Source: Candidatus Latescibacterota bacterium (GTDB taxonomy: Bacteria; Latescibacterota; UBA2968). Taken from it: 64,000 bases of DNA. A program made the position numbers and the translations under genes. Below are positions 43,667-44,200 of the stretch, piece by piece (position 1 is the stretch's first letter; each line of letters begins with the position of its first letter). The notes beneath the pieces are model-generated. The model saw nothing but the letters and a program-made list of their open reading frames with translations. It ran no database searches and was not told the origin of the DNA. The stretch is taken from NCBI GenBank assembly GCA_022821275.1, contig JAJEDY010000083.1, positions 62,001 through 126,000 on the forward strand. The letters run 5' to 3'.

Positions 43667-44077
43667 ATGGCTGAAAATTTATACGGCCTTTTGGCCGAAT
43701 TCGATGGTCCCGACGAATTGCTCAAAGCTGCAAAAGATGCATATGCAGAAGGGTATCGCAACATGGATGCCTATTCTCCAATGCCGATACACGATTTGTC
43801 GGAATCAATGGGTTATGACAAGCACCGCGTGCCTATCATTGTGTTGATCTGCGCGCTTCTCGGTGCCTGTTCCGGCTTTGGGCTTCAGTACTGGGTATCT
43901 GTGATCGACTATCCGCTCAACGTGGGTGGTCGTCCCCTTTTGAGCTGGCCCTCTTTTATACCCGTGACATTTGAACTCGGCGTGTTGTTTTCCGCTTTCG
44001 GTGCATTGATTGGCATGCTCATCCTCAATGGTTTGCCGAGACCCTATCACCCGGTTTTCAATGTCCCCAATTTTTAA
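43667..44077 (+). CDS. actD: Alternative complex III subunit ActD (DUF3341), truncated by an in-frame stop
   Basis: Start ATG 43667 (an earlier GTG at 43661 is possible). The 136 residues include the conserved N-terminus [25 protein letters not shown], a His-containing segment around [11 protein letters not shown], and two membrane helices (about 56-76 and 98-122). The stop TAA at 44075-44077 comes right after HPVFNVPNF. In the same frame the DNA continues [19 protein letters not shown] to a second TAA at 44198-44200, exactly as the intact C-terminus of ActD should read. The most direct explanation is a single G-to-T change (GAA to TAA) in this copy or a sequencing error. Whether the truncated form assembles is unknown. 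Confidence 0.85.
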   Translation: [136 protein letters not shown]

Positions 44078-44200
44078 CGCGCCTCTGGCGATTGGTTCTT
44101 TTTGTGTATCGAAGCCGAAGATCCCAAATTTGATATTTCCGAAACCCGTGCATTTCTCGAGAGCCTGAAAGCAAAAAAGGTAGATGATGTCGAACCGTAA
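44078..44200 (+). pseudogene. actD: In-frame remainder of actD after the premature stop
   Basis: This segment (about 40 codons before the TAA at 44198-44200) reads [20 protein letters not shown] and continues to an AFLESLKAKK-type ending with VDDVEP. It is the normal ActD C-terminus: the pattern (R-x-x)FFLCIEA-x-DPKFD-x(5-6)-T-x-x-FLESL is what I know from DUF3341 proteins. It would be translated only by stop-codon readthrough or if the TAA is an artefact. The actE ribosome site and start lie within it, as expected for coupled genes. Confidence 0.8.

Follow-up and report, generated by a model that had tools for sequence, protein, structure and literature searches.

A conserved subunit gene of an alternative complex III operon, actD, carries a single in-frame stop codon. 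Because it is absent in every relative that we examined, the stop most probably reflects an error in the sequence or a harmful mutation of very recent origin, and not new biology. The operon lies in a window of 64,000 nucleotides (G000:C25:62001-126000) from a Latescibacterota assembly of 5.66 Mb in 101 contigs that is 97.5% complete; the group has been reported from sponges (PMC12993501).

The interrupted actD frame

The actD frame opens with ATG at 43667 and closes with TAA at 44198-44200, its translation starting MAENLYG and ending VEP. Its one internal stop is TAA 44075-44077, with none between the two TAA codons, so that the assembly lacks an uninterrupted full-length frame: termination at the internal stop gives 136 residues and read-through 177. 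Read across the stop, the frame matches positions 1-169 of the 170-position PF11821 profile with 227.3 bits (cut-off 25.7). Residues 1-136 alone match positions 1-131, and the 40-residue tail alone matches positions 134-169 (E=7.8e-08). The original prediction had thus described and placed correctly both the stop and the C-terminus that continues in the same frame, and it was also right that actE starts inside the rest of actD, the two genes overlapping at 44184. As judged from open reading frames and domains, actD occupies its usual place within an actABCDEF cluster, laid out as follows:

38600-46395, plus strand: alternative complex III cluster, from open reading frames and domains
38600-39268, plus strand: actA, multiheme cytochrome c subunit, intact, from an open reading frame with CxxCH motifs
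39262-42261, plus strand: actB, molybdopterin-like and iron-sulfur subunit, intact, from its open reading frame and domains
42254-43654, plus strand: actC, NrfD family, intact, from domains and comparison with relatives; 14 private changes, all synonymous
43667-44074, plus strand: actD residues 1-136, with the first strand-helix-strand motif and both transmembrane helices (PF11821 1-131; predicted E7-12, H15-28, E33-36, H54-81, H94-121)
44075-44077, plus strand: private in-frame TAA at codon 137, from translation and alignments; GAA in the same-genus genomes
44078-44200, plus strand: rest of the actD frame, with the second strand-helix-strand motif and the ancestral TAA (PF11821 134-169; predicted E144-149, H157-166, E171-175)
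44093-44095, plus strand: TGG (Trp143), a second private G>T
44184-44816, plus strand: actE, monoheme cytochrome c, intact, from its open reading frame and domains; start overlaps the end of actD
44823-46016, plus strand: actF, intact open reading frame without a Pfam match; the name follows from its position and length
47251-50513, plus strand: heme-copper oxidase genes coxB, ctaD and ctaE, from open reading frames and domains, with the only COX1 of the genome

The stop is an isolated one-base interruption of an otherwise ordinary actD gene. Known ActD proteins (PF11821) are likewise encoded between actC and actE and have the same order of structural elements, whereas the internal stop and Trp143 occur in the window copy only.

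Codon 137 among relatives

Codon 137 is GAA in all 10 other genomes of the genus, within surrounding DNA that is 87-96% identical by blastn. The stop occurs in only one of 110 aligned ActD loci, a set in which some genomes are present twice and whose one affected member is the window's own copy (0 of the 109 others); most members of this alignment have Ala or Glu at residue 137. Because the relatives lack the stop, it is a single private G>T substitution at 44075 (E137*), which supports the earlier proposal that one base change from GAA to TAA truncates ActD. The blastn alignments to the same-genus copies are free of gaps in nine of the ten relatives, G008 being the exception, which with that one exception rules out a frameshift in actD and bears out the earlier statement that there is none. 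All 110 loci align to residue 165 or beyond, and none of the relatives naturally ends its ActD at PNF. Since the tail aligns throughout this set and the stop is confined to the window's copy, the interrupted frame is, on the alignment evidence, not a product of chance. Within the same family, G014 has two ActD matches, on contigs C249 and C719, the second of which is much weaker (168 bits) and perhaps belongs to a second, divergent complex.

A second private and radical G>T lies at 44093, 18 nt past the stop change, where it replaces Gly143 with Trp. Residue 143 is Gly within the genus and elsewhere mostly Arg, Gly or Lys, never Trp. Both changes turn TG into TT, and the relatives never show either of these states.

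The intact, in-frame remainder of actD would also be expected if the TAA were read through, or if translation restarted behind it, so that a full-length or split ActD was made on purpose. We nevertheless regard such a programmed or reassigned stop as disfavoured and, indeed, scarcely credible. The codon is private, not conserved within the genus; all 45 tRNAs found in this 97.5% complete genome carry sense anticodons, with no suppressor tRNA among them; and TAA serves as the terminator of conserved neighbouring genes, actC and actD among them. As for a restart, only one in-frame ATG, GTG or TTG follows the stop, a TTG at 44102, and no ribosome site is evident for it. A tRNA-Asn was not seen among the 45 tRNA genes found, probably owing to incomplete assembly.

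Consequences for ActD and the respiratory chain

The function of ActD has been described as unknown (PMC8552683). In the structure of the Rhodothermus marinus protein, two crossing transmembrane helices are flanked by a strand-helix-strand motif at each end, and the two motifs jointly form one four-stranded cytoplasmic sheet (PMC5928083). The predicted structure of the read-through product (mean pLDDT 80.9) has the same order of elements, with its two transmembrane helices between an N-terminal and a C-terminal motif. In sequence, the read-through product matches the solved chains 6lod_D, 8k9e_D, 6f0k_D and 6btm_D along almost its entire length (E=8e-65 for 6lod_D). The elements E144-149, H157-166 and E171-175 are all predicted to lie past the stop, and the 136-residue product would be without the C-terminal motif. 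According to this model, the stop would cost ActD its C-terminal strand-helix-strand, which is half of the cytoplasmic sheet.

Could such a shortened protein be real and still work, the C-terminal motif having become dispensable in this lineage? Both transmembrane helices precede the stop, as does E103, which, judged by its position in the second helix, corresponds to a conserved glutamate proposed to be functional (PMC5928083) and is invariant in our ActD alignment. The C-terminal motif is, however, kept in all 109 other loci, and the predicted loss of a strand and helix would remove half of a single folded sheet, so that we think a working truncated ActD very improbable. More broadly, there is only a slim chance that the lineage's only detected quinol-to-cytochrome complex works with a C-terminally halved cytoplasmic ActD domain, or depends on read-through of the stop to provide the missing half.

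What a real null allele would mean for the cell depends on the alternatives available for respiration. The genome has one ActD and one COX1 as far as searches of the 97.5% complete assembly go, and the same searches found no bd oxidase, no bc1 cytochrome b and no second intact actD. The heme-copper oxidase encoded by coxB, ctaD and ctaE is likely to be the electron acceptor of alternative complex III, and the complex appears to be the sole route to oxygen among those detected, though one in the missing 2.5% or in other families is possible. Given a single ActD and a single COX1, and with neither bd oxidase nor bc1 cytochrome b detected, loss of actD should come at a cost to aerobic respiration. 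Flavobacterium johnsoniae, in which both actA and actE have been deleted, loses cytochrome aa3 activity without actA yet survives, and a bd oxidase has been named as the bypass (PMC8552683). The 53 private changes in actC, actE, actF, coxB, ctaD and ctaE include 0 nonsynonymous ones, a pattern indicating that the respiratory genes beside actD are under strong purifying selection. In a different genome, G005, private amino-acid changes are clustered in ctaD (projected on window positions 49491-49533) in a way that resembles a local misassembly or a compensated indel.

Base error or recent mutation

By a narrow preference, we take the stop to be a base error in the consensus of a metagenome-assembled genome and to be without function. 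In such a scenario, the G following TTTT would have been recorded as T in the assembly, creating TAA 44075-44077; a second consensus error 18 nt on would have turned Gly143 into Trp; and the living population would have a normal ActD of the full 177 residues. A real, recent E137* carried by some or most of the population sampled, which would cut ActD to 136 residues and impair complex III, is a serious contender to which we give somewhat less than an even chance. The weights given to these two readings are a matter of judgement, not of calculation. The original prediction had offered a recoded stop, a recent lesion and a sequencing error beside a run of T; the first is disfavoured on the grounds given above and the other two are still viable, the error being acceptable as a substitution of TTTTG to TTTTT and not as an indel in the T run.

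Several features of the locus speak for a real allele. The change is a substitution rather than a homopolymer indel, the contig sequence around it is clean, the intact remainder suits a young lesion, and the sole radical change past the stop would be expected under relaxed constraint, Gly143Trp having either come afterwards in the untranslated remainder or arrived together with the stop. The genes neighbouring actD are without sign of base errors, which implies a low local error rate and counts against a consensus error. On the other side, an error is favoured by the occurrence of the stop in this genome alone and by the closeness of two radical TG-to-TT changes, and with alternative complex III as apparently the sole detected oxygen route and the other operon genes under strong purifying selection, a real E137* allele should be removed quickly. 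The stretch from the stop to the actE start holds 1 private change in 106 nt, against ~3.4 expected from the four-fold-site rate of 3.25% had it been unconstrained along the whole branch, which suggests that the lesion is young or not real; the deficit is weak (Poisson about 0.15), and a real lesion of recent origin would account for it just as well.

In its single substitution, intact remainder, private occurrence and pristine flanks, the case is like other single-base pseudogene alleles or consensus errors in assembled genomes; it differs in affecting a respiratory gene that is present only once, in which real damage should carry a cost. An error would urge caution about single-base pseudogenes called from assembled metagenomes, whereas a real T would make this an ordinary recent pseudogene allele and a natural test of whether alternative complex III needs the ActD cytoplasmic domain.

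A literature search for how often assembled genomes contain false stops returned nothing. Comparison of C25 with G002 and G007 over 238 kb revealed as clear interior lesions only the actD stop and one single-base deletion, which rules out a generally decaying or error-ridden contig; other apparent stops that we inspected on C25 were upstream frame extensions, antisense frames or near gene ends. The deletion, on the minus strand at ~168000 of C25 (outside the window, at what would be coordinate ~106000), removes one base relative to G002 (ALMFSN; GCACTCTGTTC) and so breaks the frame of a protein of ~390 residues, whose parts before and after the break are 95-99% identical to G002. At two or three per 238 kb, isolated single-base lesions reach about 1e-5 per base, a rate that is compatible with consensus errors and could come from these or from recent mutations. 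Likewise, the private G143W and the one-base frameshift fit occasional consensus errors, and they fit fresh lesions too. Four private transversions fall within 55 nt (44039-44093), but shuffled controls show such a run to be unremarkable (P about 0.19, not significant), and two of the control genomes have similar runs, so that we dropped it as a special cluster. Two of the private changes, at 44039 and 44041, fall in one codon and turn CGT into AGA, which is jointly silent for Arg; an apparent Ser-to-Arg change at 44039-44041 was an artefact of scoring the sites singly.
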